Below, piece by piece: positions 8,783 through 14,916 of a stretch of 33,233 nt of DNA. The stretch's first letter is position 1; each line of letters opens with the position of its first letter. The notes beneath the pieces were generated by a model. The model made no database searches and was not told the DNA's origin. It saw nothing but the letters and a program-made list of their open reading frames with translations. Origin of the DNA: an uncultured Granulosicoccaceae bacterium (lineage in GTDB: Bacteria; Pseudomonadota; Gammaproteobacteria; Granulosicoccales; Granulosicoccaceae); assembly GCA_938003855.1 (NCBI GenBank), contig CALKXD010000017.1, positions 1 through 33,233 of the forward strand, read 5' to 3'. Position numbers and translations under genes: made by a program.

Positions 8783-10084
8783 CTATCGAGGTATGCGTGC
8801 TTCCGCAGACACGGCATGCGCCTCCAGCCCCTCGCCGCGCGCAAGTACTGAAGCCACCTGACCCAATGCTGCGGCGCCCTCGGCAGAGCACGACACAATG
8901 CTACTGCGTTTTTGAAAATCGTAGACACCCAGCGGACTTGAGAACCGGGCTGTGCCTGACGTTGGCAATACATGGTTAGGCCCGGCGCAGTAATCCCCCA
9001 GTGCTTCTGCACTGTAGCGCCCCATGAATATTGCCCCCGCATGCCGAATACGCGGCAACAGCGATTCCGGATCGGCTACGGACAACTCCAGGTGCTCCGG
9101 TGCTATGCGGTTAATCAGATCAACCGTCTGTTGTTCGTTCTCCACCTGAATAAAGCACCCTCGCTCCCTGATCGACTGTTCTATTATTTCAGCGCGAGGC
9201 ATTGAGGCAAGCAACCGGTCCATTGCGTCGATGACCGACTCGATGAAAACGGCGTTATCGGAAATCAGTATGGCTTGTGCCTGCTCATCGTGCTCTGCCT
9301 GCGAGAATAGATCTGCTGCAATCCAGTCCGGATCCGTCAAACCATCACAGACGACGCAAATTTCCGAAGGGCCGGCGATCATATCGATACCCACCTTGCC
9401 GAATACCGCGCGCTTGGCAGTTGCCACATAGATGTTACCGGGACCCACTATTTTGTCGACGGCCGGCACCAGAGCGGTGCCGTAGGCCAACGCGGCTATC
9501 GCTTGCGCGCCACCAATGGTAAATACTCGATCGACACCGGCGACCGATGCGGCCGCCAACACCAGATCATTAAGCTCACCGTCTGGCGCAGGCACCACCA
9601 TTATCAGCTCACCCACCCCCGCCACCACAGCTGGTATCGCATTCATCAACACCGAGGACGGATAGGCGGCTTTGCCACCCGGCACGTAAAGCCCACAGCG
9701 ATCGAGCGGTGTGACCTGCTGGCCTAACATGGTTCCATCAGCTTCGCTGTAGCGCCATGAATCCGACACTTGACGCTGATGAAAGCGCTTGATGCGGGCT
9801 GCCGCTTCAACCAGCGCCTTGGACATTGGCTCTGGCAACCGATCAAACGCGGCTTGCAAGCGCTCAGCGGGAATTTCAAGCTCCGCGGCATCTGTCACAT
9901 CGCGTCGATCAAAAGTATTGGTCAGCTTGACAAGCGCGGTATCGCCCTGTTGCCGAATTTGCAGGATGATGTCGTCGACCACTGTCGACACGTCATTGTC
10001 CGACACTGACTCCCAGGCCAGCAGCGTCTGTAGCTGCTGGTCAAAATTGTCGTCAGCGACGTGTAAGCGGTTTGGCTTGATCAC
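8783..10084 (-). CDS. hisD: Histidinol dehydrogenase
   Basis: The product is 433 aa (E. coli 434). It performs the last two steps of histidine synthesis, oxidising histidinol to histidine with NAD and zinc. Visible active-site residues are Q262 and H265 ([10 protein letters not shown]), the catalytic pair E330-H331 (RIAPEHLEL), D364 ([12 protein letters not shown]) and H423 near the C-terminus. [12 protein letters not shown] and AGPSEICVV mark the NAD region. It starts with GTG, overlapping the aroG stop by 4 bp (GTGA). It is the last gene of murA-hisG-aroG-hisD. Confidence 0.97.
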
Positions 10085-11166
10085 GCCGGCTCACTGACAA
10101 CTTGGCGTCGCGTCGCGACAGCATCGCTGAGCTCCTGAAGCATCTCGACGGTATCGTCCCAGCCAATGCACGGATCGGTAATACTCTGACCTCGCAACAG
10201 CTCACGATCAGGCATTTGATCCTGCCGCCCTTCAACCAGATTGCTTTCAATCATCACCCCCATTATGCGGTGATCGCCTTCCGCCAGCTGCGAGCAGACA
10301 TCACGACACACATAGCGCTGACGCTTGAATTTCTTGCGACTGTTTGCATGACTGAAATCAATCATGATATTCGGGGTGACGTTGCTTTTTTCCATCAATG
10401 CAGAGGCGTCGTCTACGCTTGCCACGTCATAGTTGGTGTGCGGCCCGCCGCGCAGGATCAGGTGGCAATCGTTGTTGCCCGACGTAGAAAAAATAGCCGA
10501 TGCCCCGTCTTTCGTTACCGATAGAAAATGATGCCCCCGCGAAGCTGAGCAAATAGCATCTACAGCAATCTGCACACTGCCACCGGTACCATTTTTGAAG
10601 CCCACCGGTGCTGAGATCCCTGAGGCAAGTTCGCGGTGCCCCTGACTCTCCGTGGTACGCGCACCAATCGCCCCCCACCCCACCAAATCCGCGATGTACT
10701 GCGGGCTGATTAAATCCAGGAACTCGGTGCCAGCAGGTATACCCAGCGCGTTGATGTCGCGCAGCAGCGTGCGGGCAGTTTTGAGCCCCTTATTAATAGA
10801 GAAGCTGTCGTCGAGATCCGGGTCATTTATAAGACCCTTCCACCCCACTGTGGTACGCGGCTTCTCAAAATACACCCGCATCACAATAAGCAGGTTATCG
10901 CTAAGAGATTGCTGCACCGTGGCAAGCTTACCGGCATACTCGATTCCGGCATCGGGGTCATGAATCGAGCACGGTCCCACCACCACAACCAGTCGATCAT
11001 CAACACGATCAAGAATACGTCGAATGCCCATTCGACTGTCAAATACGGTTTGCGAGATCTCGGCATTTACCGGTATCTCTGCCATCAGCTGAGCCGGGGA
11101 CAGCAGCTCTTTGATATCTTTTATACGCAGATCGTCGGTGTCGAACTGAGCGGTGTTTTCGGTCAT
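10081..11166 (-). CDS. aroG: 3-deoxy-D-arabino-heptulosonate-7-phosphate (DAHP) synthase, class I
   Basis: The product is 361 aa, AroF/G/H type. It condenses PEP and erythrose-4-phosphate, the first step of the shikimate pathway. [17 protein letters not shown], the metal-binding GPCSIHD (C66), [49 protein letters not shown] and the SITDPCIGW segment are near-identical to E. coli AroG. The N-terminal extension used for allosteric control is retained, so feedback inhibition is likely. Which amino acid it senses cannot be read with confidence, and the aroG symbol is by overall similarity. It overlaps hisG and hisD by 4 bp each, so it is a translationally coupled member of a histidine operon, which is unusual. 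Confidence 0.95.
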
Positions 11167-11807
11167 ATCGCTTTTTCCAGCAAGGCGTTTTTAATATTAG
11201 CAATGAGCGCGTGAATGGTGTCGTGCTTCATTTTCATCGAGGCTTTATTAACGATCAGCCGGGCGCTGACGTCAGCGATTTCATCAAGCACCAGTAATCC
11301 GTTAGCTTTCAGGGTAGAACCGGTCTCCATGATATCGACGATGACATCGGCCATGCCCACCAGAGGTGCCAGCTCCATCGACCCATACAGCTTGATGATT
11401 TCGACTTGCTGACCACGGCTGGCAAAATAGCGACGGGTTACCTCGGGATATTTGGTCGCTACACGCAGGCCTTTTTTGGCATAAGGGTCAACTCCCTCTT
11501 TACCCGCCAGCACCAGTCTGCAACGACCAATACCCAGATCCAGCGGTTCGTACAGACCATTGCCATTGTGCTCCAGCAACACATCTTTGCCAGTGACTCC
11601 AATGTCGGCCCCGCCGTACTCGACATAGGCCGGCACATCTGACGCACGCACAAGCAGCAAAGAGGTGTCCGGCACATTAGTGCCCACCTGCAGTTTTCTT
11701 GTCGTGGTGGCGTCCTCTGCCGGCGCAATACCAGCAGCCAACAGCAACGGCAGGGTGTCGGTCAGAATTCTGCCTTTGGTCAAGGCAATAGCGAGTGTCT
11801 CAGCCAT
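11163..11807 (-). CDS. hisG: ATP phosphoribosyltransferase, short form (HisG-S)
   Basis: The product is 214 aa. It catalyses the committed step of histidine synthesis, joining ATP and PRPP. Family signatures are [31 protein letters not shown], the PRPP loop [15 protein letters not shown] and [13 protein letters not shown]. The length places it in the short form, which lacks the C-terminal regulatory domain. Short HisG enzymes are known to need the HisRS-like partner HisZ for activity and feedback control. No hisZ lies in this window. The stop overlaps aroG (ATGA); 21 bp separate it from murA. Confidence 0.96.
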
Positions 11808-11828
11808 TTTTATCGCTCATTGCCGTTG

Positions 11829-13118
<1,290 letters not shown>

Positions 13119-13246
13119 TCACGAGCACTGTCTTCTCGTGCTTGGTGCAACAGCGTAGTAAGGTCTGGTGCCGCTAGCAACGCGACCAGGCATGAATGAG
13201 GATAACTGAATCAGCGCTCCGCGGGCTGGAATTCTGCGTGGCAAAA

Positions 13247-13337
13247 TGCCCCGGGACATGCACGGTTTGTCAATCTCTAAAGATACCTGTAGTGATCATA
13301 GGTATCAGATTGACCGTGCAATTCCACCATCGGGGCA
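13247..13337. repeat. Long bulged inverted repeat (structured RNA candidate)
   Basis: The 21 nt at 13300-13320 are perfectly complementary to three consecutive 7-nt blocks at 13259-13265, 13270-13276 and 13282-13288. These blocks are separated by one-sided bulges of 4 nt (TTTG) and 5 nt (CTAAA). The apical loop is 11 nt (13289-13299). An outer 7-bp stem, TGCCCCG (13247-13253) with CGGGGCA (13331-13337), closes the whole. On the minus strand the outer stem is followed by four T, so one role could be termination of mlaC. An sRNA, a murA leader element or a mobile-element palindrome are alternatives. Confidence 0.6.
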
Positions 13338-13345
13338 CATTCACC

Positions 13346-13364
13346 ACAGCAGACTTTCTGCTGT
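13346..13364. repeat. Perfect 8-bp hairpin
   Basis: ACAGCAGA and TCTGCTGT are separated by only CTT. It lies 9 bp from the large bulged inverted repeat. It is followed by A residues on the plus strand and preceded by T on the minus strand, so it is not a classical terminator in either direction. Confidence 0.5.
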
Positions 13365-13668
13365 AAAAACTTGCGGCTCTGCTGGTCCTGCTCCAGAACG
13401 CTAACCGATCCACGTCCGGGGCGACTGGCACCTACCCACCGGCGGACCGCACAGCGCAGGCCGACATGATAGCTGATTATCAACACACACCCAACCGTTT
13501 GCCAATCGTTTCAAAGGCACCGAAAAAAGCGTGCAGATTACTTCGATAGCCCGGGGAAAGAAACCGTCATCAGCGCAAATAACGCGGCGCGGAAAGCAGA
13601 AACAAAGCGACCAGCCTTCACCCACACGCTACGCTGGGCTGCCCTGTCTGCAGCCGGGGCCGTCTTTG

Positions 13669-14253
13669 TTATTTTCCGTTTTTGGTTTCAAGGGCGGTGA
13701 TCAGCCCGGCGACACCGCCTTTCTTAATCTGACTGGAAAATTCCGATTTATAGCCAAGCACCAGGCTGATGTTTTCAACCTCGATATCATAGATCAACCA
13801 GTTGTCTTTCATTCTCAGCTTATAGTCGACGGGTATATCCGCACTGGCAGCAGGGTCCTTGAACAGCGTTTTGACTTCGGCCCGGTCATCACGTTTACCT
13901 TCCTTGAAAGGCAAAAACTCCATCGATTGACCCGAATACTCATCCAACGCCTTGGTGTAAGTGTTCAGCAGCAAATCACGAAATTCTGACACCAGTGAGA
14001 CTCTTTGCTCAGGTGTGGCCGTTTTCCAGTGCTTGCCGACAGTAAGTTTGGTCATGAGATCGAAGTCGATGTGCGGTAGCACATCTTTATCGACAACCTG
14101 ACGCACAAATTCGCTGTTACCTTTGGCTTCCGGATTGTCCAGCGCTGCAATCAGATCGTTGGTCAACTGCTTGATAAGATCTTCCGCAGGATGCGCGAGC
14201 GCAATTGCCGGAAGAAGGAATATCGCTGCAAGCACAGCGCGCAAAGTATTCAT
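13669..14253 (-). CDS. mlaC: Phospholipid-binding protein MlaC (Ttg2D family)
   Basis: The product is 194 aa. MlaC is the periplasmic carrier that shuttles phospholipids between the MlaA-porin complex in the outer membrane and the MlaFEDB transporter in the inner membrane. A signal peptide (MNTLRAVLAAIFLLPAIALA, cleaved before HPAE) is followed by the MlaC/Tol_Tol_Ttg2 domain: VLPHIDFDLMTKLTVGKHW, FRDLLLNTYTKAL and the final NWLIYDIEVENISLV segment, all typical. The frame extends 40 codons upstream, but ATG 14253 fits the signal peptide and has GGGA before it. mlaFED and mlaB are not next to it; instead mlaA is divergent. murA lies downstream, a neighbour also seen in enteric mla operons. Confidence 0.93.
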   Translation of the reverse strand: MNTLRAVLAAIFLLPAIALAHPAEDLIKQLTNDLIAALDNPEAKGNSEFVRQVVDKDVLPHIDFDLMTKLTVGKHWKTATPEQRVSLVSEFRDLLLNTYTKALDEYSGQSMEFLPFKEGKRDDRAEVKTLFKDPAASADIPVDYKLRMKDNWLIYDIEVENISLVLGYKSEFSSQIKKGGVAGLITALETKNGK

Positions 14254-14916
14254 GATTGGATTCCCGTTAAATTCTCTTAGAATAATTCGATTGTAAACCC
14301 TGTACCCGCAGGCGTATTTGAAACAGGCCCCGTACTCAAAGGCTGCAGACTGGTTGATGATTGAGCTCATCATATCAACGGCAACCTTAACCGGAGCTTT
14401 TCACTCACAACTGCCGACGGAACTCCCTGTGTGTTCAGGAATTGCCACTCCACGTCATTACCATATAAGTCCACTTGGAGAAAAATCCAGTAGCAACGCA
14501 GGTTCCGCCATGTGTCGGTGGCCCTGGTCAACACTATTTGCCAAAGTATCCGCACTAGGGAATAAAATTACCAGCCTCTGCACGATTCAGCCCGCTACAA
14601 CTTGTTACATCATTGCAGATCAAAGTGCGTGAATAATCCGAAAACCCGCAAGCGGGCGCAGGGAAATACCGCTGTATGAACTACAATTCATGCAACGCCG
14701 GAACCGCACACCAACTCACCGTACTATTGAAGAAAAGATCGCACAACGCGACCTGATCCTGTAACTTTTGGTGCCAGGTCAACATTGCGATAGAGACACA
14801 TACCTCCACCTGACACAGGCTTGCGCAGCATATTGGCCGGACATTGTTACACTACTGATTCGCACAACAATGAGACCAGTTCACCCTGCAAGGACAGAGA
14901 AGGGAATTTCAGCCAG
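14254..14916. other. Divergent intergenic region between mlaC and mlaA
   Basis: About 660 bp with no credible gene. It must hold promoters for both mlaC (minus) and the mlaA-kds run (plus), but I see no strong -35/-10 pair. A small GC hairpin (CCCGC-AA-GCGGG, near 14645-14656) is the only clear local structure. The frame upstream of mlaA stays open from 14821 but has no signal-peptide or lipoprotein character before 14917. Confidence 0.45.

Follow-up and report, generated by a model that had tools for sequence, protein, structure and literature searches.

A bulged hairpin between mlaC and murA in an uncultured Granulosicoccaceae bacterium, and its possible place in a murA leader

Does the elaborate inverted repeat that lies upstream of murA in an uncultured Granulosicoccaceae bacterium act on the genes that follow it, or is it a palindrome that has simply come to rest there? 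We examined it within a 33,233-nt stretch of DNA (the window) from a 6.8-Mb, 98% complete genome, where it lies in the 580-nt interval between mlaC and murA (13089–13668). Its parts and its neighbours are collected in Table 1.

Table 1. Hairpin components and surrounding features; coordinates are window positions.
Feature	Position	Strand	Remark
Bulged hairpin with outer stem, three stem blocks of 7 bp and a loop of 11 nt	13247–13337	-	Predicted to form in murA-sense RNA
Contiguous 21-nt arm, AGGTATCAGATTGACCGTGCA	13300–13320		Complementary to blocks 13259–13265, 13270–13276 and 13282–13288
Outer stem, 7 bp	13247–13253 with 13331–13337		TGCCCCG with CGGGGCA
Stem blocks	13259–13265; 13270–13276; 13282–13288		TGCACGG; TCAATCT; GATACCT
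One-sided bulge, 4 nt	13266–13269		
One-sided bulge, 5 nt	13277–13281		UUUAG on the minus strand
Hairpin loop, 11 nt	13289–13299		
UUUU	13243–13246	-	Immediately 3' of the outer stem in murA-sense RNA
Short open frame, MVELHGQSDTYDHYRYL	13277–13330	-	Speculative; terminates within the 5-nt bulge
mlaC	13669–14373	-	Best NCBIfam profiles HpnM and MlaC, both under cut-off
murA	11829–13088	-	Profile match above cut-off
hisG, DAHP synthase, hisD	8783–11807	-	Downstream of murA, in murA orientation
Predicted murA promoter	13466–13494	-	TTGGGT-N17-TATCAT; motif common to the genus
-10 box to murA start, 377 nt	13089–13465	-	Contains the hairpin

Geometry and rarity of the fold

The first-pass annotation had described an arm of 21 nt paired exactly with three 7-nt blocks, set apart by bulges of 4 and 5 nt and closed by a 7-bp outer stem, and this description was confirmed with exact coordinates. 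Both bulges (13266–13269 and 13277–13281) are confined to one arm, and the hairpin spans 91 nt, of which the outer stem encloses 77. Folding of 13240–13345 yielded -44.0 kcal/mol on the plus strand and -48.5 on the minus strand (z = -5.60 and -6.16, respectively), and on neither strand did any of 200 shuffles match this stability. The competing GGCA-AAA-TGCC pairing that had also been pointed out is present but contributes only -2.9 kcal/mol. A second, small perfect hairpin (ACAGCAGA-CTT-TCTGCTGT) adjoins the bulged one at 13346–13364.

Rarity was assessed across 246,527 bases of this genome, namely the window and 19 fetched stretches (a twentieth, holding runs of N, was excluded), by counting layouts in which three exact blocks face a contiguous arm, with each bulge 0–6 nt long, at least one bulge present and a loop of 3–20. 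With 7-nt blocks this hairpin was the single occurrence, and each of four Markov resamples contained none; as regards the 7+7+7 layout, the earlier judgement that chance is an unlikely cause is borne out. The count was the same for 6-nt blocks (this hairpin once, none in four resamples); for 5-nt blocks there was no case in the real DNA and 0, 1, 3 and 1 in the four resamples. High stability is by itself nothing unusual in this genome, and the rarity lies in the layout: 333 of 24,454 strand-windows of 106 nt reached -44 kcal/mol, and 82 reached -48.5. After correction for G+C content the hairpin ranked eighth in stability among non-overlapping windows, or fourth once windows within open frames >1,200 nt were set aside. 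The two best of the windows ahead of it are copies of a palindromic repeat; of the remaining five, four fall inside open frames >1,200 nt and the last within an open stretch of 387 nt.

A predicted promoter and a long predicted leader upstream of murA

murA was found in 13 of the 14 genus genomes, and a motif TTG-N3-N16-18-TATCAT occurs within 700 nt upstream of it in nine of 12 relatives as well as in the focal genome, i.e., at 10 of 13 genus loci. In the form TTGGG-N18(19)-TATCAT it was observed at window positions 13466–13494 and at loci L007–L010, L012 and L014–L017. Scored with a promoter matrix trained on eight relatives, the focal genome excluded, the site at 13494–13466 reached 18.3 bits, more than any other of the 493,054 positions on the two strands of 246.5 kb, the runner-up scoring 15.3. 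The eight training loci score 32.5–38.4 bits with the same matrix, so that the focal copy is recognisable, with a diverged spacer. TTGGG-N18-TATCAT was counted three times in the whole 6.8-Mb genome, and a reversed control once. We take the copy at 13494–13466 as the predicted murA promoter. The three relatives lacking a match to TTG-N3-N16-18-TATCAT upstream of murA differ in what they retain: L011 has the -10 half (14.1 bits) in an upstream stretch cut 132 nt before murA, L013 has a weak matrix match (7.5 bits), and L006, the closest relative, has nothing convincing (-0.1 bits). A consensus scan also returned a promoter-like site at 13505–13476 on the minus strand (TTGGCA/GATAAT, 10 of 12; 0.5 expected), which overlaps the murA motif in another register and was not preferred because that register is not the conserved one.

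From the last base of the -10 box to the murA start codon there are 97–106 nt in seven relatives, 179 and 188 nt in two, and 377 nt in the focal genome, whose predicted leader is thus unusually long, by ~270 extra nt. Because the motif stands so far ahead of murA, the hairpin falls within a long predicted, untranslated leader of murA-hisG-DAHP synthase-hisD, beginning 128 nt after the motif and ending 158 nt before the start codon. This is where a leader attenuator would be placed, between the predicted promoter (13494–13466) and the first gene (murA, start 13088). Taken in its entirety, the predicted leader has a fold little better than that of its shuffles (z = -2.19), and 3 of 100 shuffles did equally well.

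The genes behind this predicted leader keep their order at the loci compared. The order murA-hisG-DAHP synthase is present at all 13 loci compared, 12 from genus relatives and one from a neighbouring genus, and hisD was seen at 12 of these 13, one fetched stretch being cut. In the window the DAHP synthase gene is located between hisG and hisD (8783–13088), and of 41 named loci at which hisG and hisD are both present the only one to show that arrangement is L037, from the same genus, whose murA is 87% identical to the focal one. Upstream of murA the setting is less constant: mlaC is on the opposite strand in L007, L008 and L012, three of the 11 genus relatives that yielded both genes, and outside the genus 13 of 17 family loci have a STAS-like frame, by eye presumably of the mlaB type, before murA. 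No such frame was seen at the genus loci, and STAS_2 domains are present elsewhere in all 14 genus genomes. The idea that the interval is an mlaB remnant was rejected, the best match to the STAS-like frame in the focal interval having 42% identity across 31 residues (E 0.012, with this query one among dozens) and no such frame having been seen at the genus loci.

Searches for copies and relatives

The first-pass annotation had proposed looking for further copies in the genome and for conserved pairing in relatives, and neither search returned a counterpart, which are two of the three outcomes it had named as refuting. Within its own genome the hairpin was the only match by DNA at E ≤ 0.001, with one additional match of 27 nt at E ≤ 1; GCACGGTCAATCTGATACC with up to three mismatches occurs twice there, and its reversed control three times. 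Across 48 family genomes, E ≤ 1 gave 25 short non-self matches, spread over its own genome and 18 others. The best of these had E 0.00137 for one genome, or ~0.07 over 48, and the 12 of the 25 inspected by eye lie in unrelated contexts, none running on into the other arm of the hairpin. A covariance model built from the single sequence and run on the 48 family genomes (47 others) at E ≤ 1 with stricter filters found the hairpin alone, on both strands, its second own-genome hit being the same place on the opposite strand. On the 14 genus genomes at E ≤ 10 the model gave one chance-level hit (E 8.4), and nothing related at E ≤ 1 in the 13 others.

Wider searches gave the same picture. A search of 368 other genomes from a class sample, in which at most two candidates per genome were scored, gave no match to the hairpin. 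The 580-nt interval matched nothing in the other 56 genomes of the relatives set and nothing among phages and plasmids; in its own genome it matched itself and one 28-nt stretch at C64, inside an open frame and outside the hairpin, which we treated as chance. The exact 20-nt arm had no match in viral contigs. At the gathering threshold Rfam recognised only RNase P elsewhere in the window and no family for the hairpin, and neither of the two sub-threshold matches from a permissive scan lies within 13247–13337. The leader was not alignable with that of the nearest relative (L006, murA 90% identical), which also lacks the promoter motif.

Membership of a repeat family was therefore rejected, since DNA searches of the own genome, the family and the class sample, together with the covariance model, returned this hairpin as the only full match. 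As no second copy or homologue was found there is no covariation and no evidence of selection or of conserved pairing in the searched genomes. That relatives whose murA is 82–90% identical yielded no counterpart indicates that the hairpin is young or that its interval turns over quickly; rapid turnover is also suggested by the failure to align with the closest relative and by the mlaC genes on the opposite strand. We conclude that the hairpin probably represents an RNA structure of recent and local origin, and that it does not belong to any known or widely distributed element.

What the hairpin may do

The reading that we tentatively prefer, and to which we give somewhat less than an even chance, is a species-specific attenuator- or terminator-like RNA hairpin in the 5' leader of the murA-hisG-DAHP synthase-hisD transcript. 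RNA polymerase starting near 13459 would transcribe the hairpin, which may slow or partly terminate transcription in the manner of an attenuator and/or shield the mRNA, and the four genes would share one transcript. The claim that the fold is a selected RNA or single-stranded DNA structure survives in part: an RNA role is made likelier by the genus promoter motif upstream, while selection is unsupported and nothing favours single-stranded DNA. Like 5'-leader attenuators and premature terminators of bacterial biosynthetic operons, it is a GC-rich hairpin that runs into U residues and stands ahead of the first gene of a biosynthetic cluster, downstream of a predicted promoter; unlike them, it has a short U-tract, a very long interrupted stem, no recognised sensor and no conservation found. 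Of alternative terminator and antiterminator folds conserved among relatives there was no sign as far as the hairpin itself was searched for, the 47 other family genomes having no related hairpin by DNA or covariance model and 13 genus genomes none at E ≤ 1. According to PMC2965389, the signal-sensing structures of attenuators are diverse and evolve rapidly, and an example without conservation would agree with this; murA is not mentioned in the main text of that article.

With intrinsic (Rho-independent) terminators the hairpin shares a GC-rich stem base (TGCCCCG/CGGGGCA, in a fold of -48.5 kcal/mol in the murA sense) followed by UUUU, and it differs from them in spanning 91 nt with four U only, the tract giving way to GCC (UUUUGCCACG). 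Both the U-tract of four, where ~5–8 directly after the stem would be usual, and the 77 nt enclosed are atypical of such terminators. It is the best stem-plus-T-run of its interval (-42.1 kcal/mol), equalled by one of 60 Markov resamples, while the intervals of relatives range from none to -39.8, a rough comparison given that two of 21 intervals were mis-cut (L006 and L016, too long and extending into mlaC) and that most family intervals hold a gene. The likeness is accordingly suggestive only. A consensus scan of 12900–13800, limited to loops of 3–8 and five T in eight, limits outside which the hairpin falls, found no minus-strand terminator.

The main rival is neutral insertion: a small palindrome, or a perfect hairpin one arm of which was later broken by insertions of 4 and 5 nt, would have arrived with the ~270 extra leader nucleotides and have no function. 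We regard this as only a little less likely than the preferred reading. It would account for a hairpin found in this genome alone, in an interval that cannot be aligned with the closest relative and is flanked by an mlaC that is flipped in 3 of 11 genus relatives, and for the shorter promoter-murA distances of all nine relatives with the motif. The genome does, moreover, hold a multicopy palindromic repeat, to which the hairpin is unlike; nor was there a second copy (the single extra match at E ≤ 1 being 27 nt) or, by eye, a target-site duplication at the outer stem. REP- and MITE-like palindromic repeats resemble the hairpin as ~90-nt nested palindromes in non-coding DNA, and the hairpin differs in standing at one place by DNA search (E ≤ 0.001) and covariance model. 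The multicopy repeat itself is a nested palindrome of ~103 nt (L153:4921–5026, i.e., G000:C50:4921–5026, and other contigs) with at least 46 matches at at least 45 places in this genome, counts that are lower bounds with 40 of 97 candidates scored. Five pairs of copies start 162–164 nt apart and several copies stand at contig starts, which suggests arrays that break assembly.

That the hairpin instead terminates mlaC transcription, insulating the mla genes from a murA promoter located downstream of it, seems unlikely to us. A hairpin followed by UUUU between two co-oriented genes invites this explanation, the more so as no other minus-strand terminator came up in the consensus scan and TATCCT (13204–13199, minus strand) lies ~110 nt ahead of murA, at the place of the -10 box in relatives. 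Yet by eye no -35 element accompanies TATCCT, the top three matrix hits of the upstream stretch do not include it, the full motif stands upstream of the hairpin, and the U-tract is weak. Less probable still is a small RNA gene or a single-stranded-DNA element (integron attC-like, or a transposon end) acting in trans. The fold is stable on both strands, but the consensus scan of 12900–13800 showed no promoter-like site on the plus strand, and the hairpin has no Rfam match, no copies, no match to phages or plasmids and an arm absent from viral contigs. Integron attC sites have RYYYAAC and GTTRRRY ends and 1-nt extrahelical bases; by eye there is no attC core here, the ends being TGCCCCG/CGGGGCA and the bulges 4 and 5 nt.

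Amino-acid leader-peptide attenuators are known in his, phe and trp types, and MVELHGQSDTYDHYRYL resembles them as a short frame with codons for products of downstream genes. Ribosomes translating it would stall at Tyr/His codons and keep the hairpin open, coupling read-through to Tyr/His supply, an explanation we consider very improbable. The frame would run through the 5' arm, the loop and the first 3' block, and in a still less probable one-species variant stalled ribosomes would block the fold directly, coupling murA-hisG-DAHP synthase-hisD to Tyr/His. What makes the frame tempting is that the cluster contains his genes, for histidine synthesis, and a DAHP synthase, whose reaction opens the route to the aromatic amino acids. 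Its 17 codons include three Tyr and two His, its stop lies inside the bulge, a GGTGA stretch stands 10 nt ahead, and of 870 ATG frames of 14–20 codons only two, itself included, have at least three Tyr and two His. In L013 there is also a TTG frame, LSIASLLPHLFCWYHK, 52 nt before murA. Against all this, the Tyr/His test was chosen after looking, the codons are scattered and not consecutive, and it is not obvious why murA, which comes first in the cluster, should track Tyr or His. Unlike in known leader-peptide attenuators, the frame sits inside the hairpin, with no alternative antiterminator shown and no conserved frame found. Five of 12 relatives (L006, L008, L012, L013 and L014) have frames with at least three His/Tyr/Phe/Trp, in differing places and mutually unlike; none has one with three Tyr and two His, although all 12 loci share the murA-hisG-DAHP synthase order, and a run of conserved regulatory codons was not seen in their upstream stretches. 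Given the post-hoc test and relatives that have the same cluster without such a frame, we prefer the plain leader hairpin to the peptide model.

A leader hairpin present in a single copy and a single species is an ordinary kind of thing, and of wider bearing are the position of the DAHP synthase gene between hisG and hisD and the murA promoter motif shared within the genus. Should the hairpin regulate read-through, it would be an example of a cell-wall and amino-acid gene cluster gaining leader control in one species; otherwise, it is a useful case of a striking yet unconserved fold.
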